Below are positions 607 through 61,300 of a stretch of DNA of 64,000 bases, in pieces. This DNA comes from Rhizophagus irregularis (Eukaryota > Glomeromycota > Glomeromycetes > Glomerales > Glomeraceae). The translations under genes and the position numbers were made by a program. The notes beneath the pieces were generated by a model, which searched no databases, was not told the origin of the DNA, and worked only from the letters and a program-made list of their open reading frames with translations. The DNA lies in assembly GCF_026210795.1 (NCBI RefSeq), contig NC_089458.1, positions 1,550,001 to 1,614,000 on the forward strand, given 5' to 3'. Position 1 is the first letter of the stretch; each line of letters opens with the position of its first letter.

Positions 607-665
607 TAATTATAACATTTAGACTAATTTGTATAAATATTTTTGTATTGTATTACTTGTATTAC

Positions 666-2014: not shown

Positions 2015-2110
2015 TACTTAAATTTATAATTTTATAATTTAAAATTTAAAATTTTTAATATTAATTTTTAACTTTACTAAATTATACTACTGATATTTAA
2101 TACTATAATA

Positions 2111-3607: not shown

Positions 3608-3666
3608 CCATACTATTAATTTATGTTTGTTAATAAAGTTCTATATGAACTCCTTCATGAAATAAA

Positions 3667-3733
3667 AGTACTTTTAAAAATATATTGGCTCACAAGCTGG
3701 CTCGCAAGCTAATATATTTTTAAAGTACTTTTA
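3667..3733. repeat. Long perfect hairpin (foldback repeat)
   Basis: AAAGTACTTTTAAAAATATA is followed about 24 nt later by its complement, giving a stem of about 22 bp with a loop rich in GGCTCACAAGCT-like words. Those words recur inverted just downstream (about 3733-3745), and a weaker outer pairing of TAAAG(T/C)TCTA brackets about 3643-3763. It is probably the core of another MITE. Confidence 0.55.
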
Positions 3734-5108
3734 GCTTGTGAGCTGACTTGTGTAGAGCTTTATTTGTTGAATATAAATTTAAATCTAAAAAATATTAAAT
3801 AATAATACACAAACTTGTGTATTAAAAGTAAGTTTATTTGCAAAATTTAAGCATGTATTATTATGTAAAATTTATAAATAACAGCATGCATTATTCTATG
3901 TGATAAGATTGAATAAATGATTGATAAATAATTATCAAAATTGTGATAAAATGAGGATATCCACTATGCTATAATAGTATAATAATAGTGTGTTTTCATG
4001 AAAATTATAGTTTAAATTAAAGAAGTTACTTTAATTAAATTATTCAGTCACTCTAAAAATAGGCAGAAAAAGTTTTTTTATAGTATCAGAAGTCTATACT
4101 TGATAATCACCACATATTTTTATCTAGTTTTAAGGGGGATGCATTTATAGAGAGTTGACTGTATTATAATTATTAATTATAAATGATTTCTATCTATACA
4201 TAGATATTCAAATATGAATTTCTAAAAAAGTAAATTTTTTATATTAATTATTTAATGTTGGGTAGAATTAAATTTAACAAAAAATAAAAAATAAAAATTT
4301 TTTAGAATTAATTTTGATATTTTAAATAATTTGCAGAATAAATAAAAATACATATTGTATATTTTTTTAAAAATTATATTTATTAAAAAATTTTTTTTTA
4401 TAACTTTCTAATAAAGTTACATAATATATGTATAAATACCTAATGTAAATTAAGAAATTTTCTTAATTATGTTATTTATATAAAATAATAATAATTAAAT
4501 ATAAAAAATTTTATCTATTATTTCTATAAAAACTCTATGAAAATGAGCTTTTCACAAATCCATTTATGAAAAATGCAAATAATTTGATAAATTCTGTAAT
4601 ATAAAGTTATTAATTCCAGAAATATGAGCCTTTTACAGAAAAAAATTGAAATAAAAAAACAGATTGACTTTTTTTACAAAGTGGAAACATTAGAAATAAT
4701 ACAGCAAATAAGCTTGCAAAATTTAGTTTAGATTTAAATAGTTCTTATAATAATAGGTTTACCCATAGTAGTAATTTATTTATACTATTAGATTGTAAAA
4801 TATTTGCAAAAATCAAATTTGAAAAAAAATACAAAAATGTAATTATTATTCTTTTATGATTTTTTTTCTCTTCTTTTTGATTTCATTTTCAAATTCTTTT
4901 AAATTAAATTTTATATAATGCATCTAATTTCAATATAATTTTTTTATTAGTAAATTTAATTAATATATAATGTCAATTAAAGATGAAAATTATTTAAAAG
5001 AAAATATTTTAAAAATTTATTTTTGAAAATTTAAAAGAATCATAATTAAATAGAAATAAAGTTTTTTTTTTATAAATAAAAAAGTTTATAATTTATAACT
5101 TTTTATGT

Positions 5109-10929
<5,821 letters not shown>

Positions 10930-29179: not shown

Positions 29180-30272
29180 TGTTAACTTTTGTTGTAAATT
29201 ATGTAACCAGTAATATACTAATAATAAACAAAACAAAATATAAAAAAAAATATGGGTTTTGAAATTAGGTTAAAAAAAAAAGGTTTTCTTAAAGAAAAGA
29301 AAAAAAAAGGATATTAACAAACTTTTCATCATTTCTTTTTTTTTTCAAAAAATTTTTTATTTTATAATTATCATTATCAATTCTATAAATGAAAATTGAG
29401 GGTGGCTTTGAAATAATAAATTTTTTTTAATATGAGTAACATGTGATCAAATTAGTTAATTTTATTAACCGAATCAATAAGTAAATCCAAATGCATAAAA
29501 AATTTTGCACAACGAAAGTGTGTTTTTGGAAATGTTTATATTAATTCGGAAATAATAAATTTTTTAAATTTAATACCTATTAGATAGATCAAGTGTAAAA
29601 ACGTATAAAAAAAACGGAATAAAGCCACAAAAAAATATAAAATTTGGGAGAATTTATTTATTAACGCCCAATGACATAATAAGTATTATACAACGATCCT
29701 TATTATTGATGATATCATTAAAGGACATTTTGTTTCCATAGTCCCCTCAATGGGCTAAATGGTTTCAAAGATTATAGGAGATTGAGATGAATATCATTCT
29801 TCTATCGTTTCAAATGACAAATTTGGATTACGGCTATTCCTAATAACAACACAAAGAAAATCATGATTTTTAACAAAAAAGGATATTCCTCTAAACGGCA
29901 TACCGGTGGTTTAGCGGATTGTTGGCACGTGACGAAGATTTCTCTATTTTCGTATCACAATGTCTCATTAATAGATAAAAACAAGTGCGATTAGATAGCG
30001 TAGCTGTCAAAATGCTGTCAAATTACCGGGCCGAATATGTATGTATATATTATAAATTGAGGAACCGTTGTAGAAAAATGATGTATAATTGTATAAATAT
30101 TCAATAAATATGTAAATATATACTGTACATATACAAAAAAAATATATATATTTAATTGAATTGTTATTAACTCCTCATCAAATATTCGAAAATTAATTAA
30201 TCACGCAATAAAATTTGAATAAATTTCAAGATTTGATTTTTTTAAATGATTAGAATTTAAATTAACTTTCAA
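29180..30272. other. Divergent intergenic region (ATG4 promoter side)
   Basis: Contains the ATG4 upstream region and, at its right end, the sequence before the 5S gene. A-runs and T-runs are frequent. No coding frame or RNA gene other than 5S is seen. Confidence 0.45.
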
Positions 30273-30389
30273 GTTACGGCCATACACAGTGAAAAGCACC
30301 GGAACCCGTCCGATCTCCGAAGTTAAGCCACTGATGGCCCAGTCAGTACTACGGTTGGGGACAACGTGGGAATACTGGGTGCTGTAACT
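30273..30389 (+). rRNA. 5S ribosomal RNA
   Basis: About 117 nt beginning GTTACGGCCATACACAG and ending GCTGTAACT; the two ends pair as the 5S helix I. Internal landmarks include CGTCCGATCTCCGAAGTTAA and AGTACTACGGTTGGGGACAA, the eukaryotic 5S internal control region (A box and C box), which serves as the Pol III promoter. The downstream T9 run is the terminator. It stands alone among protein genes, as dispersed fungal 5S genes often do. Confidence 0.95.
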
Positions 30390-30390
30390 C

Positions 30391-30399
30391 TTTTTTTTT
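30391..30399 (+). terminator. Pol III T-run terminator of the 5S gene
   Basis: Nine consecutive T residues begin one base after the 5S 3' end. A T-run of four or more is the usual Pol III stop signal. Confidence 0.85.
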
Positions 30400-31119
30400 C
30401 ACACCAAAAAGAAAACTCTTCTAAACCTTTTCATTCCTCGATATTTAATTTTTCAATTTTCCGTATTCAATAGATGAATGTATAATATAGTTGTTTTATA
30501 CCTTTGACCTAATATTTGCTTTTATATGATCATAATGATGAGAAGTTCTTTACATTAATGTTACATGAGAATAAAAATTTCCAAATTTCACATTCTTATT
30601 TTCAATTCTTTTCGAATAAGAACGATGGTATCAATCACCGTTTTCTATAAACAATATAAAAATTCTTATTTTAAAAGGAAAAAGTTATTATGTATCAATA
30701 GTAATAATCGTAAGCTAGCTGAATATAATATAATTCACGAACTAAGCAGCAGACGATTATTAAGTTAGAGTATTTACTCTATTTACTCCAATATCTTAAT
30801 CAATTATTAAGGTTTTCGAAAACAACAAATACTCATGAGCAAGTAAATGACCAATAGAAATTTTTATTCAATTGTTTCATACGTATATAATTATATTGAC
30901 AATTTGATCAGAGATAACAAAATTTTCTTGAGCTGAGAATGTATTTAAATTGGAGTATTGCAGATGTTTTAATGCACTCACAACATTTATTTATTATGAT
31001 ATACAAATAATATAAAAATTTAAGCTGAAAGCCGATTAATATTTGAGTAGTCATTTTTTTTATCCAAATTTTTTCGTCTCAATAATTCTATTTTGATCAT
31101 TCCGATGATGGATTGAAGA
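30400..31119. other. Spacer between the 5S gene and the Argonaute array
   Basis: No gene supported; the 67-codon frame at 30565 has no recognisable features. The last exon expected for the leftmost Argonaute unit is not found here. Confidence 0.5.
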
Positions 31120-32802
31120 ATTTTGCTAGAATTTACTCTCTGAAACAACGATAGAATAAATACGGTTTCTTCCAGTAGTCTGATAAAATGTTTTTAATAA
31201 TTCCTTAATCATTTCAACAATAACCAATTTGAACACGAATTGAAGCAGCATACCGAGATGCTTTGTATTCATTGAAGTAGTTCACAGCAACAATAGATGA
31301 GTATACCAGGAGCAGGGTGAGAAACAGATACACTCAGGATATTAGCAAAATATTGTTTTTTTTTTCTGATATATATATATATATATATTAAAACATATGC
31401 CTGCCCTGAATACATTATTTGGGTAGCAACATCAATTACTGTATTGTTCACGCACACCAATACCAGGAAACACAGACTTTGATCTAGTCAAGTCTAACCT
31501 TGAGCCTTGAGGATTACTGCTTTGTATGTTTGAAATATTCATTTTAGTATCTTAACATGTGGTGGCTAATTCTCTAATGAATTCTTGTATTTCTTCTTCA
31601 TTTCCAAAAACAACACATGTCTGTGCAACAAATGTTGCACTAGTTGGCAACTGTTTTATCCCTCAAATTTCATGAAACCAATATCTTGGAGAAGAAGGAT
31701 GATAATGTGATTTTGGAGCCATCTTCAGTTATTAGATACTCGAGAACCAAATTGTTGCAAATATGATATTGTCAATTTTATTAGCACGTGATTGAGGTAA
31801 TTGATAAATCTGCACATATATATTATATATTAGTTTTACATACTCTACTACATTACATAGTACTTCCATTGGTGAATATGTCTCTCCTCGGATAACAATG
31901 CAAGGAAGAAATGGATATTGTAATTGTACATTATACGTTCATAAAGCAGCATCGGTTTGATTACCAATCACTATCATCGAATGTAATATGGAGACTGGAG
32001 TATTAGTTAATAAATTAACGGTTTAAAGCCTTTTCATCATGTATGACATAAATTTTTAAATTCTTTAAACTTTTAATTTTAAGATCTTTAATTGATCTTT
32101 TATTGAGCAATTTTAATCCTATATTTATTAAATTACCACATTCATAAAAACCAGTATCATGAATATAAATATTTATTATCATTTTCCTAGGTGTTGGCTT
32201 AATAGATTGAAAATAAACCTCTACTTTCCACTAAGAGGTCGTGAACCCTGATTAGTACAAAATATTCTCCTACTCTTTTAAGCTTCATAGGGTTAATGCA
32301 TTAAGAGCCATAATACCTAATTAACATCAAAATTAGATTTAAGTAAGAGGGATATTAATTTAATTTAACTTGTTAAAAGTTTTTATGTTTTTTTACTAGT
32401 TTTTTTATGTTAGTGAACAATTTTCATTAATTAAGCTTACGATATCTTTTATATAAATTTTCAGCGAACCTTCTTAATTGAATTTAAAAGAACGCGGAAA
32501 TCTTCTACTCATTATTTGCATCATCCTCTGAAATAATTACATCTAAAATATGTATGTGTATAACCGAATGGAAACTGTTTGGCAGTATAACTTTACAACG
32601 CCCACCAAATACAGCTCTTACGCCATAAAATGATTTTTCTGCTATTTGAAAGTTTTCTATTAAAGTTAATGAAACAAGTGGTATAACTACAAAGTTATAC
32701 AATTTTAGGGTAAAGAAGAGCCGTTACTTCGAAACAATTTATTATAACTTTTATAGGACGGTCTATACGACTTAAACTAGGACGTTTAACAAATTCTGAC
32801 AT
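31120..32802 (-). pseudogene. Argonaute unit 1, truncated pseudogene
   Basis: Leftmost (3'-most) unit of the array. The start MSEFVKRP lies at 32802 and is recognisable, followed by decayed exon 1, a PAZ exon with frameshifts (about 31860-32300) and a decayed MID/PIWI exon (about 31130-31830) in which SVSHPAPG marks the first catalytic site, Asp being Ser (TCT). Exon 4, with the end of PIWI, is absent. Many stops and deletions. It resembles unit 2 most. Confidence 0.85.
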
Positions 32803-32950
32803 ATTATATTAGACATTTTTTTCGTTCCTTGATGTATAATTCATCTCAAAATATTATAATTTTATGGTTATAATCATAATGTGTGTCATTGAAATTCAAT
32901 CATTTTGTAAATTTAAAGATTAAACTGTAATAATTCAGTTATATTCAGTA

Positions 32951-33000: not shown

Positions 33001-33435
33001 TATGAATTTTTACGATTTAAGACAACGAAAATCAAAAAGTATAATGAATTCACATTTTTTTTTCTCTCTATTAAATGTTGTCCCTTCAATATTTAATTTG
33101 ATCCGGTCTAATTAATAATTTGGATAAGAAAATTTACTTAAAACTAAATAAAATAAGTAAAATTTTGATTGGTTAAGTTTTAGCAAATTTTCTAATCAAA
33201 TTTTTTAGTCTATTCTAATTATTTTGAGATTATTCTTTAACCTTTTTTTATTCGGTATATCATCAAAAATCTTACAATCGAAAAAAATTTTGTAATTCTA
33301 CAGCTTTATTGAAAAAATATATGCTACAAAAAGTTGAATTCTATAAACATGATATAAACTAATGATAATTCTGGAATATATTCACGAAATACAGTATCTG
33401 GTTATTATTACATAAAATACATAACCCTTAGTAGT

Positions 33436-36052
33436 TCAGGTTTTACAGTAGCATAACTGGTACCTCTTGCATTTGCAATGAAATCTTGTTCTACGACAAA
33501 CTAAACGAGCATAATACACTGATGGAACAATAGAAACTGCACGAGTGCATCGAGCAAAAGAATAGCACAAATTATATGTTAAGATTTGAAGTGCATCAGA
33601 ACTGAATCCATTTTCATCAAACAACACGCGATAATGAGTCGGACGTGAAGTCCCTTGCAAACTAGTGTGGCTTTGAAGATAAAAATCAAATCTTGAGTTA
33701 TTGTTTATTCGACTACCGTACCAGGGAGGCAGTTGCCTGCTCTGTCACCATCTTTTTTATCAATTGGAAAAAAGCGAGTGTGATGACGTTTTTGCGCAAC
33801 CACAAAGGTCACTTCAAGTGATTTGCATACAACTAAATGTTTATTAAGACAATTTAAGTAAAGCGTATTTGAAATCTCATTATAAAATGACGAAATAATA
33901 AATATATACTGTACCTTTTATTGCCTTGATTTCATACTATAGCATTGCAAGGAATTGGCCTTCGGAAACACCGTTTCGATAAAATAAAATACGTTCCGCT
34001 TTTCTTTCACAAGTCTGATAAAATGTTTTTAATAATTATTTAGTCATGTCTGCTAAATGACTAATAACTTCTTGTTGAACACGAATTGAAGCAACATATC
34101 GAGATGCCATTGCATCTATTGAAGCAGCCACAGCTGCAATAGATGGACGACTGGTATCACCAGGAACAGGGTGAATAACAGATGCACCCAATATGATGGT
34201 TGGACTCTCTGAAACGAAGAGCAATTGGCTTGGATTAATGAACGAATTCATACCACCAAGTTTAGCATTTATTTTAAGATAAACATTAACACAATATTGC
34301 TTTTTTATTGCAAACATATTCCTGCTCTGAATACATAGAGTAACAACACCAGTTACTGTATCGCCGACGCGTTTAATTTCGGCATCATATAATGATACAC
34401 CAGTGTTAGGAAGAATACATAAAATTAATTGAGGCTGTGCTTTAGCATCGTTTCCAGCCTTAAGCCAAACTTGCTTTAAAGAATTTTCAATATCACCCAG
34501 AAGATTAAAGTATTATATAGGTGGTTTCCTATTTAGAATATTCATTCCAGCATCTTGACATGTGGTAACCAATTCTCTAATAAATTTTTGTATAGCGCTC
34601 ATAGGAAAATCATTTTCACTTCCAAAAACAGTACATGCCCATGAACCAAGTTGTTGCACCAGTGGCAACTTTCTTATCCCTCAAATTCCATAAACCATTT
34701 CTTGGACTATCTCTAGAAGTAAGGTTATACTGTAATTTGGAGCAGGAAATATTCTTGCTTGAGTTATAGCCACCTCATTAGATACCCGAAAATCAAATCG
34801 CTGCATATAGTACTCATTTTGTTGATAATTAAGAATTCCGATACCTTGGTTAATTTTATTAGCACGTGATTGAGATGGTTGACAATCATACTGTATTTGC
34901 CGTGTCTTTCATTCAATTTGCGCATAAAAAGTTGTCCCTAACAATACACAATGCGTTAAAAATAATTTTATTCCATATTGATTAATATGTTGTTTTACAT
35001 ACCTCAACTACATTACATACTTCCAATGGTAAATAAGTTTCCTCTCGGATGACAATGCAAGGAAGGAATGGATGTTGTAATTGCATATTATATTTTCTTT
35101 GAAAGTATGAAGCAACATCAGTTTGATTACCATTATCATCAAATGTAGTAGTATTACTATCTGAAGTATTAGTTACTTTAGAAATTCTAAATCGGCGGTT
35201 TAAAGCATTTTCATCATGAGTGGCATAAATTTTTAAATTCTTTAAAAAATTTTCAATCTTTAGTCGATCTCTCTCTGAAATATCTCTAAGTTCTTCAATG
35301 GTCCTTTTATTAAGCACTTTTTTCACTATCCGTGTTAAACTGCTACTTTCATAAAAAGCGGTAGCATGAAAATCAATATTTATCATCATATTCTATTAGC
35401 CGTTGGTCTAATAGATTGAAAATAACCTTGCCAAGCCTCTACTCCCTCATTAAGAGATTGTGAACCCTGATTAGTACAAAATATTCACCCCGTCTTTTAA
35501 GCATCATTGATGGCATATGATGAATCAATACATTAAGAGCCATAATACCTAATTGACGTTAAAATTAAATTTTAAGTACTATTTTAATTGTGAAAAGAAA
35601 AATTATAAATATTAACCTGTTAAAACATTTAATGTCATAAGTCCACGTCTGTCAAGAAACATATTGATCTCTTCCATATGAATTTCAGCGACTTTCTTAA
35701 TTCTTATTTTAAAAATACGTGGAGGTCTTCTATCCACATTATTCGTATTATCCTCTGGCATAGTCACATCTGACATCTAGAGTATGTATATCACCAAAAG
35801 TAAACTGTCTAGAAGTATAAATATTTCCATCAAATACAACTTTTACCCCAAAAAAGAATCTTCTGCTACTCGAAAAATTTTTCTATTTAAAGTTGGAGGA
35901 ACTTCTGGTAAAATTACAATCTCATAATGGTAAACATTATTGAAAGGAAAATCTGTTATTTCGAAATAGTTTATTCTAAGCCTTATAGGACGTCCTAATT
36001 TATCTAAACCAGGACGTTTAACAAATTCTGTAAACAAAGATATTACTTCCAT
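33436..36052 (-). pseudogene. Argonaute unit 2, pseudogene
   Basis: All four exons are present but broken. Exon 1 starts [20 protein letters not shown] at 36052 and loses frame near 35860, where a base is missing after GATTCTTTTTTGGGG. Exon 2 has a stop after RPTANRI, then reads on as a good PAZ (34982-35389). Exon 3 retains ILGASVIHPVPG with Ser (TCT) for the first catalytic Asp and is interrupted several times. Exon 4 lacks the ITF segment and has a stop near 33710, then ends [13 protein letters not shown], where the catalytic His is Arg. Decay looks younger than in unit 1. Confidence 0.88.
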
Positions 36053-36690: not shown

Positions 36691-39421
36691 TTACGCAAAA
36701 TACATAAAATTTAGTAATTCAGACTTTACAACGGCATAACTTGCACTTCCTATACCTTCTAAAGTATCTCGATTGCTCCAATTTTCACCACTTACATGAA
36801 ATCTTGCTCTACGACAAACTAAACGAGCATAATACACTGGTGGAACAATAGAAACTGCACGAGTGCATCGAGCAAAATTATAGCATAAATTATATGTTAA
36901 TGTTTGAAGTGAGTCAGCATTGAACCCGTTTTCATCATATAACACGTGATAATGAGCCGGACGTGAAATCCCTTGTAAACTAGGGTGACTTAGAAGATAA
37001 AAATCAAATTCAAAAGGATGCACTACTGTTGTATCAACTACTGTACCAGAAGGACAGTTTCCTGTTCTATCGCCATCTCTTCTAGTGTCAATTGGGAAAA
37101 AGCGAGTGTGATGACGTTTTTGCACAACTACAAAAGTTATCGTTGGTTTATACTTCTCGTCAAGTGACTTGCATGCGGCTGAATATTTAGTAAGATAGTT
37201 TTATTAAGTAAAGCGTATTTGAAATATCAAATATAAAATGAATATATACCATTTATTGCCTTGATTACATTCTCTCGCACTATTAAAAATTGGTTTTCAG
37301 AAATACCATCTCGGTAGAATAAGATACGTTCTGGTTTTCTTCCACAAGTCTGATAAAATGCTTTTAATAATTCCTTAATAATTTCGGCTAGGTCATCAAT
37401 AACTACCTGTTTGCCGTGTTGAATACGAATTGCGGCAAAATATCGAAATGCTTTTGCATCTACTGAGGCAGTGACAGCAGCAATAGATGAGCGACCGGTA
37501 TTCTGTTCCCCAGGAGCAGGGTGAATAACAGATGCGCCCATTATGATAGTTGGACGTTGTGTAATAAAGGGCATTTGGCTTGGATCAATGAATGAATTCA
37601 TACCACCAAGTTTAACATTTATTTTAAGACAAACATTAGCACAATATTGCTTTTTTGCTGAAAACATATGCTTTCCTTGGATACACTGAGTAGCAACACC
37701 AATTACTGTATCGCAAACGCGTTTAATTTCGGCATACAATGGTGCACCAGTATTAGGGAGAATACATAAAATTAATTGAGGGTTAGATTTAGCCGAGTTT
37801 CCAGCCCTAACCCAAACTTGTTTTAAAGAATTTTCAATACCGCCTTGAGGGTTACAATGTTGAATAGGTGGATTTCTATTTGGAATATTCATTCCAGCAA
37901 CTTGACACGTGTTAACCAATTCTCTAATAAAATTTTGTATAGTGCCTATTGGATAATCTCTTTCACTTCCAAAAACAGCACATGCCCATGAACCAAGCGT
38001 TGCACCAGTGGCAACTTTTTTATTCTTTAAATTCCATAAACCATCTTTTGGAATGAAAGTATCCTCTTTAGAGGCAGGATGGTAATATAATGTTGGAGTA
38101 GGTAATACTCTTGCTTGAGTTATAACCATATCATTTGATATCTGAAAACCAAATTGATATATATACTCATTTTGTCGATAATTAAGAATTTCGATACCTT
38201 GGTTAATTGTATTAGTACGTATTTGAGGTGGTTGACAAGTAAATTCAATCATATCCGCCATTTGTCTTTCATTTAATTTGCGCATATAACGTTGCCCCTA
38301 GTAAATATAAAATACGGTTAAAAAGAAAAAAAATTTTCTTATACTCTGTAATTGAACATATGACAGTTTTATATACCTCAACTACATTACATATTTCTAT
38401 TGGTAAATAAGTTTCATTTCGTACAACAACGCAAGGAAGGAACGGATATTGTAGTCTTCTACCATACGTACTAAAAAAGTATGTAGCAATATCGATTTGT
38501 TGACCATTAACTTCAAATGTAGTACTAGAAGCTGAAGTATTAGTTAATTTAGAAATTCTAAATCGGTGTCTTGAAAAACGAAGAACGACAAAAATTTTTA
38601 GATTCTTTAAACATTTTTCAAGCTTTGTACGATCTCTTTCTTGAATCCTCCATAGATCTTCAACGGTACTCTTACCGAGTATTCTTACAACTAATTGTAT
38701 TAAGCTGCCTCTTTCATAAAAAGCAGTAGCATGTAAATCAATATTTATCATCATTTTCCTAGGTTTTGGTCTAATAGATTGAAAATATCCTTGCCAAACC
38801 TCCATCCCTCCATCAAGGAGTTGTGAACCCTGATTAGTATAAAATATTCTCCCTACTTTTATATGCTCCTTTGATGGTTTATGATGAATCAATACATTAA
38901 GAGCCATAATGCCTAATTAACAATAGAATAAATTTTAAGGAAACATTTTAACTAATTATAAAAAGAGAAACTATAATGAATAAATTTTAACCTGTTAAAA
39001 TATTTGATGATATAGAACAATCTCCGTTAAGAAATCTGTTGATCTCTCTCATATCAATTTCAGCGACTTTCCTAATTATAACTTTATAAACACGTGGAAG
39101 CATTATACCCACATTATTCATATCATTCTCTGGCATAGTCACTTCTAAATTATGTGCATCACCAAAAGGAAACGGTCTGACGGCATAAACATTTCTACGA
39201 CCATCAAATACAGCTTTTACACCAGAAAAAGAATTTTCTGCTTCTTGAATAATTCTTCTATTCGAAGTTGGAGAAACTTCTGGTATAATTACAATGTCAT
39301 AATGATAAATTTTTGGAAAAGGAAGATCCGTTATTTCGAAATAATTTGTTCGAACTTTTATAGAATGACCAACACGACCTAAATCAGGACGTCTAACGAA
39401 TTCTGCTATACTACTATCCAT
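36691..39421 (-). CDS. Argonaute unit 3 (predicted slicer-dead, S-V-D-R)
   Basis: Small-RNA-binding protein of the AGO clade. Four exons (39421-38992, 38912-38377, 38297-37250, 37178-36691) encode 833 residues. Exon 1 is the N domain, exon 2 linker 1 plus PAZ (FRISKLTNT...YPFLPC), exon 3 linker 2, MID and the first half of PIWI, exon 4 the end of PIWI to LLNFMYF at the C-terminus. MID residues that hold the guide 5' phosphate in animal AGO ([22 protein letters not shown]) are kept. The slicer tetrad is gone: GASVIHP has Ser578 (codon TCT) for Asp, GKQVVID has Val for the glutamate finger, FYRDGISE keeps Asp, and YYARLV has Arg for His. The frame is fully open, so it is probably still a gene. 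A noncatalytic guide-binding role is an inference. Confidence 0.92.
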
Positions 39422-39490
39422 GAATTGAATGATAAAAGTGAGTTAAGATAAAAAATTCAATTTTTAAAAAATATTAATCGATAGTATTAA

Positions 39491-39558
39491 TAAGAAATTC
39501 AAAGCCTTATTAAGCCACGAACCGAACCTTGAGGCACAATGGATTATATAATAGTATT
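39491..39558 (-). promoter_or_regulatory. Array upstream block, unit 3
   Basis: Plus-strand reading AAAGCCTTATTAAGCCACGA, then CCTTGAGGCACAATGG and ATTATATAATAG, 70 bp before the ATG at 39421. The same block, in the same order, precedes units 4-6. The ATTATATAAT word is a TATA-box candidate. Confidence 0.65.
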
Positions 39559-39717
39559 TTTAAAAAAATTTCCAACAAATCGTTTAAAATAAAATTTTTT
39601 TATTGATGCCAAAATATACTATATACTAGTAAGATATTCACAACTATAATTTTTTAATTTTTGGATAGGCTATTATTAATAAGTACTATTATAAATAATT
39701 TTGGTGCTTCATTAGCT

Positions 39718-42451
39718 TTACATAAAATACATAGTCTTTAGTAATTCAGTTTTTACAGCAGCGTATCTGGCTACTCCCGCACCTTCTGGAGTATCTGGAG
39801 TATCTGGATCGCTCCAATTTTCACCACTTGCATGAAATCTTGCTCTAGCGCAAACTAAATGAGCATAATACACTGGTGGAACAATAGAAACTGCACGAGT
39901 ACATCGAGCAAAATTATAGCATAAATTGTATGTTAATGTTTGAAGTGAGTCTGCATTGAATACATTTTCATCAAGTAACACGTGATAATGCATCGGACGT
40001 GAAGTCCCTTGCAAATTAGGGTGACTTTGAAGATAAAAGTCAAATTCAAAAGGATGTACTATTGTTGAATCAACTACTGTACCAGAAGAACAATTTCCTG
40101 TTCTATCGCCATCTCTCGCATTAGTTGGGAAAAAACGAGTGTGATGACGTTTTTGTACAACTACAAAAGTTATTGTTGGTTTATACTTCTCGTCAAGAGA
40201 CCTACATGCTTCTAAATATTTATTGACAATTTAAGTGAAATATTATTATAAAATGACTTAAAATATTAATAAATATATACCTTTTATTGACTTGGTTTCA
40301 TCCTTTAACACTATAGAAAATTGACCTTCTGAAACGCCGTCTCGATAAAATAAAATACGTTCCGGTTTTCTTCCACAGGTCATATAAAATGTTTTTAATA
40401 ATTCTTTAACCATTTCTGCTAAATCACTAATAACTTCCTGTCTGCCAGTTTGAACACGAATTGAAGCAGCATATCGATATGCTTTTGCGTCCATTGAAGC
40501 AGTCACAGCAGCAATGGACGGACGACCCATATTCTCTGCACCTGGAGCAGGATGAGTAACGCTAGCACCCATAAGGATAGTCGGGCGCTGTGTAATAAAG
40601 GGCATTTGGCTTGGATTAATGAATGAATTCATGCCACCAAGTTTAACATTTATTTTAAGACAAACATTAGCACAATATTGCTTTTTTACTGTAAACATAT
40701 GTTTTCCCTGAACACATTGAGAAGCGACGCCAATTACGGTATCGCCAACACGTTTAATTTCGGCATACAATGATACACCAGTATTAGGGAGAATACATAA
40801 AATTAATTGAGGTTTAGATTTAGCCAAGTTTCCAGCCTTAACCCAAACTTGTCTCAAAGCAGTTTCAATACCGCCTTGAGGGTTACAATGTTGAATAGGT
40901 GGATTCTTATTTGGAATATTCATTCCAGTATCTTGACATGTGGTAATCAATTCTCTAATGAATTTTTGTATAGCACCCATTGGATAATATCTTTCACTTC
41001 CAAAAACAGCACATGACCATGAACCAAGCGTTGCACCAGTGGCAAATTTTTTATTCCTTAAATTCCATAAACCATCCTTTGGAATGAAAGTATCCTCTTT
41101 AGAAGCAGGATGATAATGTAATGTTGGAGTGGGTAATACCCTTGCTTGAATTATGGCCATTTCATTGGATACTCGGAAACCAAATTGTTGCATATATTCA
41201 TTTAGTCTATAATTAAGAACTTCGATACATTGGCTAATTTTATTAGCACGTGATGAAGGGGGCTGACAAGTAAATTTAATCATATTTTCCGTTTGTCTTT
41301 CATTCAATTTGCGCATATAATGTTGCCCCTAACAAATAATACACAAGTTACATTAAAATAATTTTTTTTCATATTTGATTAGTATATTCAGTTAGTTTTA
41401 CATACCTCAACTACATTACATACTTCCATTGGTAAATAAGTTTCCCTTCGGATGACAATGCAAGGAAGGAACGGATATTGTAGTCTTTTATTATACGTAT
41501 TAAAAAAGTATGTAGCGATATCAATTTGTTGACCATTAACTTCAAATTTAGTACTAGAAGCTGGAGTATTAGTTAATTTAGAAATTCTAAATCGACGTCT
41601 TGAAGCAACTTCACCACGGTGAGTGTCGAAAATTTTTAGATTCTTTAAACATTTTTCAAGCTTTGTACGATCTCTATTGTGAATCCCTCTAAGATCATCA
41701 ACGGACTTCTTATTGAGTTTTTTTGCAACTAATTGTACTAAACTATCACTTTCATAAAAAGCAGTAGCATGTAAATCAACATTTATCATCAGTTTCCTAG
41801 GTGTTGGTCTAATAGATTGAAAATATCCTTGCCAAACCTCTACCCCTCCACTAAGAGATCGTGAACCTTGATTAGTGTAAAATACTCTCCCTACTTTTAT
41901 ATGCTCCTTTGATGGTTTGTTATGAATCAATATATTAAGAACCATAATGCCTAATTAACATTAAAATAAATTTTAAGTAAAGGAAATATTGCAACTAATT
42001 GTAGAAAGAAAATTATAATGAATAAATTTAAACCTGTTAAAATATTTGATGATATAGACCCACGTCCGTTAAGAAATCTGTTGATCTCTTCCATATTAAT
42101 TACAGCGACCCTTCTAATCATTATTTTAAAAGTACGTGGAGTTCTTCCACCCGCATTATCCTCTGGCATAGTCACATCTAATGCTTGTGCATCCCCAAAA
42201 GGAAACGGTCTGATGGTATAAACATTTCTACGACCATCAAATACAGCTCTTATACCGGGAAAAGAATTTTCTGCTACTTGAAAAATTTTTCTATTCAAAG
42301 TTGGAGGAACTTCTGGTATAATTACAATGTCGTAATGGTAAATATTTGAGGAAGGAAAAGCTATTACTTCGAAATAGTTTGTTCTAAGTCTTATAGGATG
42401 ACCTACACGACCAAAATCAGGACGTTTAACGAATTCTGTTATACTAGCCAT
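39718..42451 (-). CDS. Argonaute unit 4 (predicted slicer-dead, S-E-D-H)
   Basis: Four exons (42451-42034, 41950-41406, 41328-40281, 40211-39718) encode 834 residues with the N, PAZ, MID and PIWI order of eukaryotic AGOs. The phosphate-pocket motifs [16 protein letters not shown] and [10 protein letters not shown] are intact. In [14 protein letters not shown] has Ser577 (codon AGC) for the first Asp, while GRQEVIS (Glu), [11 protein letters not shown] (Asp) and [12 protein letters not shown] (His) are normal. Only one catalytic residue is missing, which in animal AGO2 is enough to abolish slicing. Exon 4 shares [15 protein letters not shown] with unit 5. Confidence 0.92.
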
Positions 42452-42530
42452 TATTTGGACAATTGAAAAATGAGCTAAGATATCAAAAAAATTCGATCAA
42501 TCGTATGTTAAATACAAAAAGTTCCAATAG

Positions 42531-42600
42531 ATAAGAAATTGCAAAGCCTTTTTAAGCCAAAAACCAAACCTTGAGGCACAATGGATTATATAATAGTACT
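42531..42600 (-). promoter_or_regulatory. Array upstream block, unit 4
   Basis: ATAAGAAATTGCAAAGCC, TTTAAGCCAAAAACC, CCTTGAGGCACAATGG and ATTATATAATAGTA in order, 80 bp before the ATG at 42451; nearly identical to the block of unit 3. Confidence 0.65.
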
Positions 42601-42767
42601 TTAAAAATTTTCTAACAAATCGGTTAATATACAGTATGTATGTTTGTCAAATTATAATATTTATTTATTTATTTTATTTTATTTCTATGTCAAATTATAA
42701 TAGTAAGATATTCATAACTATGATTTTTATTTTGTAGATAGATTATTAATTTGGTGATTTATTGGCT

Positions 42768-45460
42768 TTACATAAAATACATAACTTTTAGTAATTCAGC
42801 TTTTACAGCAGCATATCTGGCTACTCCCCCCGCACCTTCTGAAGTATCTGGATCGCTCCAATTTTCACCACTTGCATGAAATCTTGCTCTAGCACAAACT
42901 AAATGAGCATAATACACTGGTGGAACAATAGAAACTGCACGAGTGCATCGAGCAAAAACATAGCACAAATTGTATGTTAATGTTTGAAGTGAGTCTGCAT
43001 TGAATCCGTTTTCATCAAGTAACACGTGATAATGAGTCGGACGTGAAGTCCCTTGCAAACTAGGGTGACTTAGAAGATAAAAGTCAAATTCAAAAGGATG
43101 TACTATTGTTGTTTCAACTACTGTACCAGAAGGACAATTTCCTATTCTATCGCCATCTCTCGCATTAATTGGGAAAAAACGAGTGTGATGACGTTTTTGT
43201 ATAACTACAAAAGTTATTGTTGGTTTATACTTCTCGTCAAGAGACTTGCATGCTTCTAAATATTTATTGACAATTTAAGTAAAATATTATTATAATGACT
43301 TAAAAGAATAATAAATATATACCTTTTATTGCCTTGATTTCATCCTTTAATACTATAGAAAATTGGCTTTCTGAAACGCCGTCTCGATAGAATAGAATAC
43401 GATCCGGTTTTCTTCCACAGGTCATATAAAATGTTTTTAATAATTCTTTAACCATTTCTGCTAAATCACTAATAACTTCCTGTCTACCAGTTTGAACACG
43501 AATTGAAGCAGCATATCGAGATGCCTTTGCGTCCATTGAAGCGGTCACAGCAGCAATAGATGGACGACCCGAATTTTCTGCGCCTGGAGCATGATGAGTA
43601 ACGCTAGCACCCATAAGGATAGTCGGGCGCTGTGTGATGAAAGGTACTTGAATTGGGTCAATAAATGAATTCATGCCGCCAAGTTTAACGTTCATTTTTA
43701 GACAAACGTTGGCACAATATAGTTTCTTTGCTGCAAACATATGTTTTCCCTGAACACATTGAGAAGCGACGCCAATTACGGTATCGCTAACACGCTTAAT
43801 TTCGGCATATAACGGTACACCAGTGTTGGGGAGAATACAAAGAATCAGCTGAGGTTTTGATTTAGCCAAGTTTCCAGCCTTAACCCAAACTTGTCTCAAA
43901 GAAGTTTCAATTGGACCCTGAGGGTTACAATGTTGAATAGGTGGATTCTTATTTGGAATATTCATTCCAGTGTCTTGACATGTGGTAACCAATTCTCTAA
44001 TGAATATTTGTATAGCGCTCATAGGATAATCTCTTTCATTTCCAAAAACAGCGCATGCCCATGAACCAAGCGTTGCACCAGTGGCAACTTTCTTATCCCT
44101 CAAATTCCATAAACCATTTCTTGGAGTGAAAATACTCTCTCTTGAAGTAGGATGATACTGTAGTTTTGGAGCAGGCAATATTCTTGCTTGAGTTATGGCC
44201 ATCTCATTAGATACCCGAAAATCAAATTGTTGCATATACTGATTTTGTTGGTAATTAAGAATTTGGATACCTTGGTTAATTTTACTAGCATGTGATTGAG
44301 GTGGACGAGTAAGTTTAGACATATTTGCCGTTTGTCTTTCATTCAATTTGCGCATATAACGTTGTCCCTAACAAATACACAATGCGTTAAAAAAATAATT
44401 TTGTTCCATATTGATTAGTATATTAGTTTTACATGCATACCTCAACTACATTACATACTTCCATTGGTAAATAAGTTCCACTTCGAATAACAATGCAAGG
44501 AAAGAATGGATATAATAATTGTATATTATATTTTCTTTGGAAGTATGAAGCAACATCAGTTTGATTACCATTATCATCAAATATAGTATTACTAGCTGAA
44601 GTATTAGTTACTTTAAAAATTCTAAATCGGCGGTTTAAAGCATTTTCATCATGAGTAGCATAAATTTTTAAATTTTTTAAACATTTTTCAAGCTTTGTAC
44701 GGTCTCTATCGTGAATCCTTCTAAGATCATCAGCGGACCTCTTATTGAGTATTTTTACAACTAATTGTACTAAACTATCACTTTCGTAAAAAGCAGTAGC
44801 ATGTAAATCAACATTTATCATCAATTTCTTAGGTGTTGGTCTAATAGATTGAAAATATCCTTGCAAAGCCTCTACCCCTCCACTAAGAGGTCGTGAATCT
44901 TGATTAGTATAAAATATTCTCCCTACACTATTAAGTGTCGTTGATGGAACATGACGGATCAATATATTAAGAGCCATAATGCCTAATTAGAAATTTAATT
45001 AAGTAAGGTGATATTACAAAAATGATGTTATAATAAATAAATATTAACCTGTTAAAATATTTGATGATATAGAACCACGTCCGTTAAGAAATCTATTGAT
45101 CTCTTCCATATGAATTTCATTGACTTTCTTAATTCTTATTCTAAAAATACGTGGAGGTCTTCTAATCGTATTATCCTCTGGTAAGGTCACATCTAATGTA
45201 TGTACATCCAACGGTCTGATAGTATAAACATTTCTACGACCATCAAATACAGCTCTTATACCATAAAAAGAATTTTCCGCTATTTGAAAAATTTTTCTAT
45301 TCAAAGTTGGAGGAACTTCTGGTGAAATATCAATGTCGTAATGATGAATATTGGAGGCAGGAAGATTTGTTATTTCGAAATAGTTTGTTCTAATTCTTAT
45401 AGGACGACCTAAACGACCTAAACCAGGACGTTTGACGAATTCAGTTATATTAGCCATCAT
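42768..45460 (-). CDS. Argonaute unit 5 (predicted slicer-dead, S-E-D-H; mosaic PAZ)
   Basis: Four exons (45460-45049, 44982-44441, 44367-43323, 43255-42768) encode 828 residues. [10 protein letters not shown] carries Ser573 (AGC) for the first catalytic Asp and also His for the following Pro; Glu, Asp and His of the tetrad are present in [16 protein letters not shown] and YYAHLV. MID phosphate-pocket motifs are intact. Exon 2 is a mosaic: up to about 44690 it matches units 4 and 6 ([15 protein letters not shown]), then it switches to the sequence type of pseudogene unit 2 ([33 protein letters not shown]). The start is ATGATG; either ATG may be used. Confidence 0.92.
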
Positions 45461-45540
45461 TTAGACGATCAGAAGAATAAGATATTAAAAAAAATTCAAT
45501 CAATTGGTATGTTTATTGTTTAAATATTAAAATATCAATG

Positions 45541-45600
45541 ATAAGAAATTGCAAAGCCTTATTAAGCCACGAACCAAACCCTGAGGCACAATGAGTATTT
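45541..45600 (-). promoter_or_regulatory. Array upstream block, unit 5
   Basis: ATAAGAAATTGCAAAGCC, TTATTAAGCCACGAACC and CCTGAGGCACAATG in order, 81 bp before the ATG at 45460. The ATTATATAAT half of the block is missing here, unlike in units 3 and 4. Confidence 0.6.
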
Positions 45601-45753
45601 TTTTTTAAAAGATTTCCACAAATTGTTCAACTAACATTTTTTTTATATGTTGTCAAATTGTATTTAAAATACATCTATAATTGTTATAAGACTTTTGCAG
45701 CTATACTATTAATAAGTACTGCAAATATAAATAATTTTAGTACTTTATTAACT

Positions 45754-48462
45754 TTATATAAAATACATAGTTTTTAGTAATTCAGATTTTACAACACCAT
45801 AACTGGCACTTCCTACACCTTCTGGAGTATCTGGATTGCTCCAATTTTCACCACTTGCATAAAATCTTGCTCTACGACAAACTAAACTAGCATAATGCAC
45901 TGGTGGAACAATAGAAACTGCACGAGTGCATCGAGCAAAATTATAGCACAAATTGTATGTTAATGTTTGAAGTGAGTCTGCATTGAAACCGTTTTCATCG
46001 AGTAATACGTGATAATGAGCCGGACGTGAAATCCCTTGTAAACTAGGGTGGCTTTGAAGATAAAAGTCAAACTCAAAAGGATGTACTATTGTTGAATCAA
46101 CTACTGTACCAGAAGGACAATTTCCTGTTCTATCTCCATCTATTCCAGTATCAATTGGAAAAAAACGAGTGTGATGACGTTTTTGCACAACTACAAAAGT
46201 TATTGTTGGTTTATATCTCCCGTCAAGTGACATGCATGCGTCTAAATGTTTGTTGACAATTTAAGTGAAATATTACTATAAAATGATTCATAATAATAAT
46301 AAATACATACCTTTTATTGCCCTGATTTCCTCATTTAATACTATAGAAAATTGACCTTCTGAAACGCCGTCTCGATAGAATAAAATACGTTCTGGTTTTC
46401 TTCCACAGGTCTGATAAAATGTTTTTAATAATTCTTTAACCATTTCTGCTAAATCACCAATAACTTCCTGTCTGCCAGATCGAATACGAATTGAAGCAGC
46501 ATATCGAGATGCTTTTGCGTCCATTGAAGCAGTCACAGCAGCAATGGATGGGGTATTCTGTTCTCCAGGAGCAGGGTGAGTAACATCTGCACCCATTATG
46601 ATGGTTGGACGTTGTGTAATGAAGGGAATTTGGCTTGGATCAATGAATGAATTCTCGCCACCAAGTTTAACATTTATTTTAAGACAAACATTGGCGCAAT
46701 ATATTCTTATTGCGCGCATTATGTGTCTGCTCTGAATACATTGCGTAGCAACCCCAATTAATGTATCGCAAACGCGTTTAATTTCGGCATACAATATACC
46801 ACCAATATTGGGAAGAATACATAAAATTAATTGAGGCTTAGATTTAGCCGAGTTTCCAGCCCTAACCCAAACTTGTCTTAAAGAATTTTCAATACCGCCT
46901 TGAGGATTACAGTGTAATATAGGTGGATTTCTATTTGGAATATTCATTCCAGCATCTTGACACGTGTTAACCAATTCTCTAATGAAATTTTGTATAGTGC
47001 CTATTGGATAATCTCTTTCACTTCCAAAAACAGCACATGCCCATGAACTAAGTGTTGCACCAATGGCAACTTTCTTATTCCTTAAATTCCATAAGCCATC
47101 TTTTGGAATGAAAGTATCCTCTTTAGAAGCAGAATGGTAATGTAATGTTGGAGCAGGTAATACCCTTGCTTGAGTTATTGTCATTTCAGTAGATACCCGA
47201 AAATCAAATTGTTGCATATACTCGTTTTGTCGATAATCAAGAATTTGGAGACCTTGGTTAATTTTATCAGCACGTGATGAAGGTGGTTGACGAGTAAATT
47301 TAATCATTTCCGCTATTTGTCTTTTGTTCAATTTGTGCATATAACGTTGTCCCTAACAAATATTACACAAGTTACATTAAAAAATAATTTTAATCCATAT
47401 TGATTAGTATATTAGTTTTACATACCCCCACTACATTACATATTTCCATTGGTAAATAAGAATTCATTCGTACAATAACGCAAGGAAGGAACGGATATTG
47501 TAGACTTCTACCATATGTATTATTAAAGTAAGTAACAACATCGATACGTTGACCATTAACTTCAAACATAGTACTAGAAGCTGGAGTATTAGTTAATTTA
47601 GTAATTTTAAATCGGCGTCTCGGAGCACTTTCACCACGATGAGTGACATAAATCTTTAGGTTCTTTAAACATTTTTCAAGCTTTACACGATCTCTTTCTT
47701 GAATCTCTCTAAGATCTTCAACGGACCTCTTATTGAGTATTTTTACAACTAATTGTACTAAACTATCACTTTCATAAAAAGCAGTAGCATGTAAATCAAT
47801 ATTTATCATCAATTTCCTAGGTGTTGGTCTAATAGATTGAAAATATCCTTGCCAAACCTCCACCCCTCCACTAAGAGATTGTGAACCTTGATTAGTGTAA
47901 AATACTCTCCCTACTTTTAAATACTCCCTTGATGGTTTATGATGAATCAATACATTAAGAACCATAATGCCTATTTAACATTAAAATAAATTTTAAGTAA
48001 AGGAAATATTTCAATTAATTGTGAAAAGAAATTATTTTAACCTGTTAAAATATTTGATGATATAGAACTACGTCCGTCAAGAAATCTATAGACCTCTTCC
48101 ATATTAATTTCATTGACTTTCTTAATCTTCATTTTAAAAATACGTGGAATTCTTCTACTCGCATTATCCTCTGGTATAGTCACATCTAATGCTTGTGCAT
48201 CACCAAAAGGAAACGGTCTGATAGTATAAACATTTCTACGACCATCAAATATAGCTTTTATACCATAAAAAGAATTTTCAGTAGCTATTTGAAAAATTTT
48301 TCTATTCAAAGTTGGAGGAACTTCTGGGGAAATTACAATGTCGTAATGATGAATATTGGAGTCAGGAAAATTTGTTATTTCGAAATAGTTTGTTCTAATT
48401 CTTATAGGACGACCTAAACGACCAAAACCAGGACGTTTGCCGAATTCAGTTACATTAAACAT
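45754..48462 (-). CDS. Argonaute unit 6 (predicted slicer-dead, D-E-D-S)
   Basis: Four exons (48462-48042, 47970-47426, 47352-46311, 46241-45754) encode 831 residues. This is the only copy that keeps the first catalytic Asp ([10 protein letters not shown], Asp578, codon GAT), with Glu in GRQEVIG and Asp in [11 protein letters not shown]. The last residue is lost: [12 protein letters not shown] has Ser (AGT) where the catalytic His should be. Phosphate-pocket motifs LYAEIKR, TQCIQ and [10 protein letters not shown] are intact, but the insert that follows is divergent ([14 protein letters not shown]), and GGENSF replaces GGMNSF. PAZ is of the same type as unit 4. Fungal and plant AGOs with His replaced by another residue can retain activity in some cases (Asp at this place), but Ser is not a metal ligand I would expect to work. 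Confidence 0.92.
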
Positions 48463-58373: not shown

Positions 58374-61300
58374 GGATTAATTTGAAAATAACCGTCGGTA
58401 AAATTCACCAAGTGGTGAATTTCACCATATGGTATGTTTTACCATGATTTTCATATTGCATTTAAAATTTAAAATTTCGTAATTAAATATTTTATGGTGA
58501 TATTCATCATTTGGTGAAATTCACCTGATTACATAACACGTGATTTAGTGTAATTTACCCTAGTAAAATCAAAAACGCCATTTTTCTTTTTTTGTTTTTT
58601 CGTGCTCTTTCTTTAAAGAAAAATCTTTCTTTTATTAGCAATGGATATCTTTGATTTGCACCCAATTTTAACATTTCAAGAAGACAATATGGAACTAGAT
58701 TTACTTTGTTCTAATAGTTATAATAATAAAATGAATATCCATGCTCTTTCCAAATTTTTTAATAATAATGTGAACCTATCCAAACCTTTTAATGAAAATT
58801 TTTCAGATACGGATCTTTTGTCATATTTTGAAACATCTTTTAATGTTGATTTTACTGATCATATTAATATTTCACCAAATCCCAGAGAAGTTAATATTTT
58901 AGCACTAAATTCTGAACCACTTTCTAATGACAATTTTACCAACATTAATATTTCACCAAATCCTGAACAACTTCTTGATAACAATTTTTTTGAGTTAACT
59001 TCTAATATAAATTCTTCTAATAATTATCAATATAATCTCACTGTGGGTGATTATTTTGATGATTGGTCATCAGTTGATGCATTTATACATAATTATTGTT
59101 TAGAACGAGGATTTGGTTATCAAATTTGCTGCAGTGATAAAGACAAAGATCCGAATGACTTTACCATCTGGTGTAAGTCATATAAATGTTACATCAAGTG
59201 GTTGTTATGAAGCTCGAAAGGTAGTTGATCATACGTTACACCGATTATGTGGTACTATAAAGACCAACTGTGAATGGTATTGCAATTTCACATTTTCAAA
59301 ATCAGCACAACATGTGAAATGTACTATTTTAAAAGATGTACACAATCACGAAATAAATCCTGCTCAAGTATCTCATGTTATTGCCAGATATCGGCGTTTT
59401 AGTGAAGAAATGATACAAGATTTAAAGTTCTTTATGGATTGTAAAGTAGCGCCTATTACACAGTTAGAAATACTCAAAAAAAAGTATCCAAAACACGTAT
59501 TTTACAAGCAAGACGTTTATAATGCAATTTATAAACTACGTCAGGATAATAATGAAAAGCTAGATACTACTTCATTACTTGATATTCTTTTTGAGAAAAT
59601 ATCTCAAGATCCACGTTGGAAGATTTTTATTCAACATTCTGAAAGTGAAAAACGATTATTTAACAAGAACTGTATTTGCGATTTTCTGATGTAGTGTTAA
59701 ACGATAATACATGTAAGACAAATAAATATAACATGTATTTAAGTGTCTTTATGATTAAAGATAACTATGGAAAATTTAGAAATGTTGCAAACGCCCTTGT
59801 AGAAGATGAATTAGCGTCTACATACACCTGGATTTTACAATGCCTTATGAAAGTAACTAACAATATTGCGCCAAAGGCTTTTTGGACGGATTCTGAGCCA
59901 GGATTAATTAATGCTGCTGCACATGTTTTTCCATCAACACCTCATTTCTATTCCCTTTTTCATATTCGTCAGAATATAATCAAGCACCTCAAAACTAAAA
60001 TACAAAACTTTAATGATTTTATTAAAGTTTTTTTATTCATGCAGAAATGCATTAAGTGTGGAAATTTTTGAGCAGCGTTGGGAATCAATGATAAAAAAAT
60101 TTCCTGAGTGTGAGCGTTATATGACTAGAGCATTATACGCTAATAGAATTAGTTGGACAAAAGTATTTGCATCATTCCAATTTAATGCTGGAATACAGAA
60201 TACACAGAGTGTGGAGTCGTTCAATAGCATTATTAAAAAATCTCTTAACAATGCTAGTTCCCTTTGTGATATTGAGGAAGCTATTGACAAAAGGCATGAA
60301 GAAGAAATTAAATATTGCAAATTAACGGATATCAAGTCATTATATACGACAATTGGGTTTCCACACCTTTCTTCTCAATTTTTTTCAAGCATTGATAGGG
60401 TTATTGTTGAGTTTTTACCATCACTTATATTATCAATGTAGCAGTTTCAAATTTCACAAGCATTTACCTATGAGGGACAATTAACATCTTATTTATCTGA
60501 GGTATGTGTTAGTATATTTGATATAATGTATTAAATGCAGCATTTACTGATAGTTTATTTCATTTATTATAGGATTTATGTTCTAATAACACTATAGAAG
60601 ATAATTTTATAGAAGATGTGGTTGATGAACCACAGACGACATTAAAAGCTTTATTAATTGATATGAACACATTAAAGATTGTTGAAACATGAAAAATTTG
60701 TCGAGTAGGTGGTCTTTCCCATAAAGACAATCTTGTAGTTCTTTTTGATGATAGGACGCATCTATGTACTTGTGTAGAGACAATCACAAAAGAGATAGTA
60801 TGTCAGCATTTCTGGAGAGTCATGCTTTATTCAAATATGGCAAAATTCCATATCAGCATCATACTCATCAGATTATATAAAGATGAAATTTTGATAAAAT
60901 TAGACGAAGCTCTTGAAAAATTGCCAGTTTTTACAGCAATAGAACCGCCTACCAATAATACAACATTACCTCATGAAGTGAATTTTACTCTTCAAGGATT
61001 AAGACACATTCAACAATCTGGTTATAAAGAAAATGTTCAGCAAATAGTTCCTCAGAGAAACCGATTTGGAGTAGCATTCTCAACTGCTAAAACAGCAATT
61101 AATGTTGCTTTAGAAACTAAAAGTGATAATGAGTTAGTTCAATTGTTGAAAGATTTTATTTCATCTAAAAAAAATCGTAATGGTGGTGTAAGAAATAATG
61201 AGAACAATCAAGATAATAATGAAATTGTTCCCTTATAACAATGTTTGATTGATGAAGTTACGGATCCTCATGTTACTAAGATTTGAGGAGCTCCATGTAA

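Follow-up and report, generated by a model that had tools for sequence, protein, structure and literature searches.

A direct tandem array of Argonaute genes lies on the minus strand of the window analysed here, a stretch of 64,000 nucleotides of the Rhizophagus irregularis genome (C30:1550001-1614000). The array has a period of about 3 kb and consists of six units (U1-U6), of which U3-U6 are four intact genes at 36691-48462, with the relics U2 and U1 downstream. In each of the four intact Argonautes the slicer site is broken, whereas the small-RNA-binding half is otherwise largely preserved; this pattern suggests that they silence or compete without cutting. We give about an even chance (roughly 50%) that U3-U6 are functional slicer-deficient AGO-clade Argonautes that were tandemly duplicated from an Argonaute with a DEDH tetrad related to another locus of this genome, L005. 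As judged from the sequences, target cleavage was probably lost at least twice within the array, while the coding frames and the MID-PIWI half were kept.

The genome searched comprised 146.7 Mb in 32 contigs, and the units were modelled with a purpose-written spliced aligner using intact paralogues as queries. Each of U3-U6 begins with a start codon, is divided into four exons by three GT-AG introns of 66-83 bases and ends with a single stop, and the interval given in the initial annotation, 36691-48462, runs exactly from the stop of U3 to the start of U6. The gene models of U3-U6 contain no disabling mutations, compared to 13 in one model of U2 (9 frameshifts and 4 stops; 8 and 4 in the other model). 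For U1, both models have 14 frameshifts, with 5 stops in one and 7 in the other. The units are as follows.

45754..48462, minus strand: Unit 6, intact Argonaute of 831 aa, tetrad D-E-D-S (gene model, AGO2 alignment); exons 48042-48462, 47426-47970, 46311-47352, 45754-46241
42768..45460, minus strand: Unit 5, intact Argonaute of 828 aa, tetrad S-E-D-H (gene model); exons 45049-45460, 44441-44982, 43323-44367, 42768-43255
39718..42451, minus strand: Unit 4, intact Argonaute of 834 aa, tetrad S-E-D-H (gene model, Pfam); exons 42034-42451, 41406-41950, 40281-41328, 39718-40211
36691..39421, minus strand: Unit 3, intact Argonaute of 833 aa, tetrad S-V-D-R (gene model, Pfam); exons 38992-39421, 38377-38912, 37250-38297, 36691-37178
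33408..36031, minus strand: Unit 2, pseudogene relic, tetrad S-E-N-R, pocket residue Q545 changed to L
29891..32805, minus strand: Unit 1, older Argonaute relic, 3' part not reliably modelled

In U3 and U4, which were scanned, the ArgoN, L1, PAZ, L2, MID and Piwi domains all exceed the Pfam cut-off and occur in this order (Piwi E=3.3e-96 in U3 and 1.3e-102 in U4), and residues 9-802 of U6 align to human AGO2. On the basis of this domain set and of the predicted 5'-phosphate pocket, U3-U6 are AGO-clade eukaryotic Argonautes. Residues were numbered after human AGO2 (4ola), to which U6 was aligned with HMMER (E=5.1e-198); in this alignment the tetrad positions are D597, E637, D669 and H807. The tetrads are S578-V620-D652-R790 in U3, S577-E619-D651-H788 in U4, S573-E615-D647-H784 in U5 and D578-E618-D650-S788 in U6, so that none of the four has the slicing tetrad DEDD/H. 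This bears out, letter for letter, the initial annotation, which had read SVDR, SEDH, SEDH and DEDS. It had also claimed that the residues binding the guide 5' phosphate and the C-terminal Arg of PIWI are kept, and indeed Y529, K533, Q545, K566, K570 and R812 (AGO2 numbering), which we take to form the guide 5'-phosphate pocket, are present in each of U3-U6 (6/6). The available part of PMC6284064 names the Y-K-Q-K set for MID. All four proteins look able to hold a 5'-phosphorylated guide, and U3-U5 at least look unable to cut; in U6 (DEDS) slicing may be only partly lost. The positions of these residues in the window are listed below.

37530..37532, minus strand: U3 codon at AGO2 D597, Ser (TCT)
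37404..37406, minus strand: U3 codon at AGO2 E637, Val (GTA)
36823..36825, minus strand: U3 codon at AGO2 H807, Arg (CGT)
40561..40563, minus strand: U4 codon at AGO2 D597, Ser (AGC)
43603..43605, minus strand: U5 codon at AGO2 D597, Ser (AGC)
45886..45888, minus strand: U6 codon at AGO2 H807, Ser (AGT)
46666..46791, minus strand: MID 5'-phosphate pocket of U6 (Y510, K514, Q526, K547, K551), the same set being present in U3-U5

Compensated frameshifts were also considered as the origin of a MID patch in U6 ([12 protein letters not shown]) and of a PAZ patch in U3, and were found to be unsupported.

To place these changes among the Argonautes of the same genome, we modelled 44 loci (the 6 window units, 35 models from L001-L034 and 3 fragments; gene ends of the L loci in these family models are unchecked). 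An invariant set of 67 MID-PIWI positions, identical in 21 DEDH loci of the genome, comprises the 4 catalytic positions and 63 others. U4, U5 and U6 have each changed a single invariant position, which is a catalytic one, and none of the 63 others; U3 has changed 3 of the 4 catalytic positions and 1 of the 63 others (Fisher test, p=0.0003). At strictly invariant positions of MID-PIWI, the array shows hardly any change outside the catalytic residues. Because the finding had been picked for its broken tetrads, a second test was based on deep sites chosen without the array, namely those that are identical in L001-L003 and at which at least 75% of the other clade has that same state (L004, the tetrad of which is broken, was omitted from this definition and U2 from the event count, and U1 was never in the tree). 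On the family tree, 4, 5, 4 and 5 changes fall on the four catalytic sites, compared to a mean of 1.70 at the 121 others (Mann-Whitney p=0.003), and the six pocket sites changed 0 or 1 times each. Within the array, 3 of the 4 catalytic deep sites are variable versus 9 of the 121 others (Fisher p=0.003). The possibility that the guide pocket is specially protected was rejected, the other invariant MID-PIWI sites being kept about equally well.

Selection was assessed by the ratio of nonsynonymous to synonymous substitution rates (dN/dS, omega). A single tree for the whole gene was rejected; codon models were fitted by segment because the segments differ in topology, several topologies being weakly supported, and no codon analysis included U1. 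Whole-gene pairwise omega among U3-U6 (six pairs) is 0.34-0.43, with a gain in log-likelihood of 19-39 over omega 1, and not near 1 over the whole proteins, the outcome that the initial annotation had named as refuting its proposal. On the array branches (in brackets twice the log-likelihood difference from omega 1, 2dlnL), omega is 0.29 for MID (17.1), 0.33 for L2 (17.7), 0.32 and 0.31 for the two segments of PIWI (15.5 and 24.3), 0.57 for PAZ (6.6) and 0.75 for N-L1 (2.0), the last value not being distinguishable from 1. Purifying selection on MID, the test named beforehand, is thus borne out. The accompanying idea that selection maintains guide binding in particular did not hold: PIWI is as tight as MID, the pocket not being special, and N-L1 and PAZ are near neutral despite the fact that these domains shape the channel and hold the 3' end of the guide.

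Estimates by pair and by terminal branch give more detail. For the six array pairs, omega is 0.60-0.93 in the N lobe, 0.09-0.37 in MID and 0.24-0.33 in PIWI, and the PIWI values are close to those of five pairs of DEDH loci (N lobe 0.18-0.56, MID 0.15-0.58, PIWI 0.13-0.23; L006-L007, L009-L030, L010-L031, L012-L027 and L001-L002, from 19 pairs in all, of which L016-L026 is saturated). Two pairs with broken tetrads gave, for the N lobe, MID and PIWI, 0.59, 0.90 and 0.56 (L017-L033) and 0.70, 0.66 and 0.48 (L015-L032). On the terminal branches, omega over codons 441-840 is 0.20 for U3 (2dlnL 32.9), 0.35 for U4 (5.6) and 0.32 for U6 (9.0), and in the N lobe 0.96 for U3, 0.81 for U6, 0.62 for U5 and 0.32 for U4. 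The background omega of L006 (0.01-0.07) was distrusted, as its synonymous sites are saturated; U3-U6 and L005 each differ from L006 by a pairwise synonymous divergence (dS) of more than 8. In a neutral simulation that counted stops only, a gene acquired on average about 5 premature stops when it had diverged by 0.05 substitutions per site, about 10 when it had diverged by 0.10 and 13-14 by 0.15. None was observed in U3-U6, the pairwise dS among the units being 0.28-0.47.

The codons indicate how the slicer site was lost. At the first Asp, the codon is TCT in U2 and U3, AGC in U4 and U5, GAT in U6 and GAC in L005, and the flanking codons assign U2, U3 and U6 to one haplotype and U4, U5 and L005 to a second. 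Since different Ser codons stand on different haplotypes, D597S arose at least two times within the array. One loss passed on to every unit was rejected, as U6 keeps the Asp, and TCT and AGC lie on different haplotypes. At H807, the codons CGT (Arg) of U2 and U3 and AGT (Ser) of U6 are one step apart, which suggests an Arg ancestor for these three units. The proposal in the initial annotation that cutting was lost in different ways is therefore supported (at least two D597S events, H807 to R and to S, and E637V). Because AGC is common to U4 and U5, and TCT to U2 and U3, loss of the slicer seems to predate the separation of each pair, and the frames of U3, U4 and U5 seem to have been kept after it; this is weakened by gene conversion, since copies can also come to share letters through exchange. 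Elsewhere in the genome, Ser occupies the first position in L004 (AGT) and L033 (AGC), and each of the four Ser origins (U2/U3, U4/U5, L004 and L033) is two base changes away from Asp. Of 41 rows, 34 have Asp at this position and 7 have Ser, and none has a replacement that a single step would produce; Asn does occur in the decayed fragment L035, so that Ser is not the sole replacement in the genome. A tree of 35 rows shows a minimum of six changes of the DEDH state, gains and losses being counted together (the tree left out L021, L022, L023, L024 and L034, which are disabled or partial, and the fragments L035-L037; L028 was drawn and left uncounted for state changes).

U5 and L005, which are located on different contigs, share 69 identical consecutive codons (455-523 in L005 numbering) in MID and exon 3 of U5. 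Over codons 455-584 there are 7 differences in 130 codons, and this stretch ends just short of the catalytic codon 585. The tract is likely the result of ectopic gene conversion, in either direction.

C12:4193900-4198300: locus L005, partner of the U5 tract (U5 exon 3, 43323-44367, minus strand)

If U3-U6 are functional, they would bind 5'-phosphorylated small RNAs and then pair with targets. Once bound to a target, they would act by occupying it or by recruiting other factors, for RNA-dependent RNA polymerase (RdRP) amplification, decay or chromatin effects; alternatively, they would compete with slicing AGOs for guides. This proposed working is similar to how nematode WAGOs are thought to work. 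The residues, the open frames, the purifying selection on MID-PIWI and the repeated loss are seen in the sequences, whereas we infer that U3-U6 are expressed, that they load guides, that they do not cleave and that they have an effect on silencing. The genome has 11 RdRP matches with E values of at most 8.2e-90, of 62 exon-level matches, and an amplifying partner is therefore encoded in it, as the other half of an amplification system of the WAGO type.

A number of observations weigh against the view that U3-U6 are working slicer-deficient Argonautes. For the invariant set, the single-unit Fisher p-value is 0.06 for each of U4, U5 and U6, and at sites that are 95% conserved, U3, U4, U5 and U6 have 3, 0, 1 and 2 other changes out of 79 (p=0.0009, 0.05, 0.10 and 0.14, respectively). 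On the family tree, 26 of the 121 other deep sites changed at least 4 times, as often as the catalytic ones. The omega of the U5 terminal branch over codons 441-840 ran to its bound. Moreover, PIWI omega with the dead relic U2 is 0.31 (U5) and 0.35 (U3), and pairwise omega alone can therefore not show that a copy works today. Gene conversion can refresh frames, which weakens the argument from open frames. The available text of PMC6399891 (2019) reports 40 AGO-like genes in R. irregularis, 25 of them complete, with one species-specific group of five that are complete, lack expression evidence and include two with close identifiers; this group may be the present array. The facts least well explained are the near-neutral N-terminal lobe (pairwise 0.60-0.93; U3 0.96, U6 0.81) and the U3 PAZ residue aligned with AGO2 H271, which is Leu (H to L).

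Several of these facts are what would be expected if the array were a birth-and-death nursery of dying duplicates, in which the open copies are young or refreshed by conversion and the catalytic changes are early hits. We consider this the most probable of the alternatives, though less likely than functional slicer-deficient Argonautes. The two relics U1 and U2 in the same array, the N-lobe omega near 1, the conversion tract between U5 and L005 and the group without expression evidence that possibly is this array (PMC6399891, in the part available) all fit it, as do the other broken-tetrad loci, which look relaxed (MID omega 0.90 for L017-L033 and 0.66 for L015-L032). However, four genes free of stops and frameshifts stand against about 10 stops expected in each per 0.1 neutral substitutions per site; the changes at invariant sites hit catalytic residues and hardly anything else; and omega in MID-PIWI is significantly below 1 (0.20 on the U3 branch).

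An improbable alternative is that the units are decoys or sinks, whose sole use of guides would be to keep them away from slicing Argonautes such as L005 and thereby to tune or block RNA interference. A kept pocket with lost catalysis and the sequence exchange in the MID region with the slicing-type L005 would agree with this, but PIWI, not obviously needed by a bare guide sink, is as conserved as MID, and PAZ is relaxed (0.57) although it holds the guide 3' end. The joint constraint on PIWI and MID is better explained by proteins that bind guide and target and recruit partners than by a bare sink. Slightly less probable again is a bolder version of the preferred reading, namely that selection repeatedly made dead guide-bound MID-PIWI modules, with Asp to Ser in four lineages and the N-PAZ lobe of the array freed. 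The Asn in the decayed fragment L035 weighs against it; if it were true, the array would correspond, in a eukaryote, to the short or long-B prokaryotic Argonautes that are inactive, and L004, a kinase-linked slicer-dead locus, would be the version with an effector domain attached. The least probable of the alternatives is residual slicing, which concerns U6 (DEDS), where only the fourth residue is lost, a position that is naturally His or Asp and perhaps the least strict. U6 changed none of the 63 other invariant sites, and eukaryotic AGOs differ from one another in the fourth residue (DEDD/H; PMC4245922 and PMC6284064, in the parts available). This explanation is, however, inapplicable to U3, U4 and U5, which all lack D597, and the AGT of U6, one step from the CGT (Arg) of U2/U3, may descend from an Arg form.

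Broken tetrads are common in the Argonaute family of this genome. Among the 27 models that are near-full-length and undamaged (small damage in short introns can be hidden by the aligner), 18 are DEDH and 9 are not, the latter being U3-U6, L004, L015, L017, L032 and the mildly changed L026 (DDDH). Of the 27 models, all but the DEDH locus L018 have a complete pocket (26/27). Among the nine without DEDH, at least the members of the array are still held by selection in MID and PIWI. In a tree of the genome's AGOs, which contains no WAGO sequence, U3-U6 fall beside the DEDH locus L005.

Two further sets of loci attracted attention. In the related loci L014, L015, L017, L032 and L033, D669 is Asn in four of the five and GVSE reads VSK in all five, and MID-PIWI omega is looser in the pairs tested; slicer loss in this group looks more like decay. 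L004 (C28:1777700-1784200, 337-5817, minus strand; SENR) and L007 (C15:501800-510500, the region that also holds L038; DEDH) are Argonautes of different deep clades, and both are preceded in the same open frame by a common region of about 460 aa, with 35% identity between the two (E=6e-68). In L004 a protein kinase domain is in the same frame, and in L007 one is in an open frame just upstream. The L004 kinase reads HGN where HRD is the usual kinase motif, and L004 also has a weak, below-cut-off match to a fungal MACPF-like protein. No such extension precedes the start of the AGO frame in their respective sisters, L002 (of L004) and L006 (of L007).

Non-slicing Argonautes are familiar from other organisms. 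Human AGO1 (DEDR) and AGO4 are guide-loading AGO-clade proteins with poor or no slicing and a changed fourth residue, which in AGO1 is Arg, as in U3; human AGOs keep the first Asp, whereas three of U3-U6 have Ser. According to the available part of PMC6284064, Phytophthora clade 7 has five tandem AGOs (AGO3/4/5/8/9) with catalytic residues variously lost, some of the AGO9 group having Ser or Asn at the first Asp; the MID residues are better kept than those of PIWI, and the authors left open whether the genes are functional or pseudogenes. Both cases are lineage-specific arrays of tandem AGOs that have lost tetrad residues, and both occur in filamentous eukaryotes associated with plants. The Phytophthora arrays, however, belong to the oomycete AGO II clade, making the fungal case independent, and several members also vary in MID (as far as the text of PMC6284064 was available), unlike U3-U6. 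The phrase 'purifying selection' does not occur in PMC6284064, and its available part contains no count of independent losses and no control at other invariant sites.

The WAGOs of Caenorhabditis elegans lack the catalytic tetrad and act downstream of primary Argonautes in secondary silencing (PMC4245922, available part). The present case resembles them in the large lineage-specific expansion, in the absent or broken tetrad (U3-U6) and in the RdRPs of the same genome. WAGOs are, however, a separate clade binding 5'-triphosphate 22G RNAs, whereas the pocket of U3-U6 has unchanged monophosphate-type residues, and unlike WAGOs U3-U6 sit beside a DEDH AGO. R. irregularis has no AGO in the nematode WAGO group according to the available text of PMC6399891. 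Arbuscular mycorrhizal fungi have unusually large Argonaute families (PMC6399891 and PMC12477606, available parts), and the AGO-like expansions described for Rhizophagus and Gigaspora (PMC6399891, PMC8647823 and PMC7082362, likewise) probably concern the same or related species. In their available text, these three papers do not deal with catalytic residues: 'slicer' and 'DEDH' occur zero times in PMC6399891 and PMC7082362, as do 'slicer' and 'catalytic' in PMC8647823, and among the literature matches listed, in the parts available, there was no report of slicer loss in mycorrhizal fungi. The kind of array is thus already known; what is new is that it occurs independently in a fungus, that Asp changed to Ser repeatedly and that the MID-PIWI half is conserved in contrast to a drifting N lobe.

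If the units work, the expansion would not just mean more cutters, and there would be a second, non-cutting tier as in worms, fed by RdRPs. Matched pairs such as U5 (SEDH) and L005 (DEDH), with almost identical MID, allow a direct comparison of slicing, guide choice and function.

Other features of the window were noted in passing. An open frame at 7482-9209 (minus strand) contains GHVDTGK, which is presumably the motif of an eIF5B/IF2-type GTPase, directly followed by an intein-like insert; the insert matches Hom_end_hint (E=2e-27) and, weakly, a homing endonuclease. No paper on an intein in eIF-5B was found when the literature was queried under the spelling 'eIF-5B' alone. On the low-coordinate side of the array lie an NDT80/PhoG-type DNA-binding protein (22728-23759, plus strand, E=5e-41) and the start of an ATG4-type peptidase C54 (27056-28414, minus strand, E=2e-17). 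About 10 kb from the array, at 58617-61238 (plus strand), there are MULE-like transposase pieces, a label that we base on what we take to be a SWIM-like cysteine pattern; the two pieces scanned had no Pfam match. In R. irregularis, MULEs adjoin AGO genes, and expanded families form tandem arrays (PMC8647823, available part).

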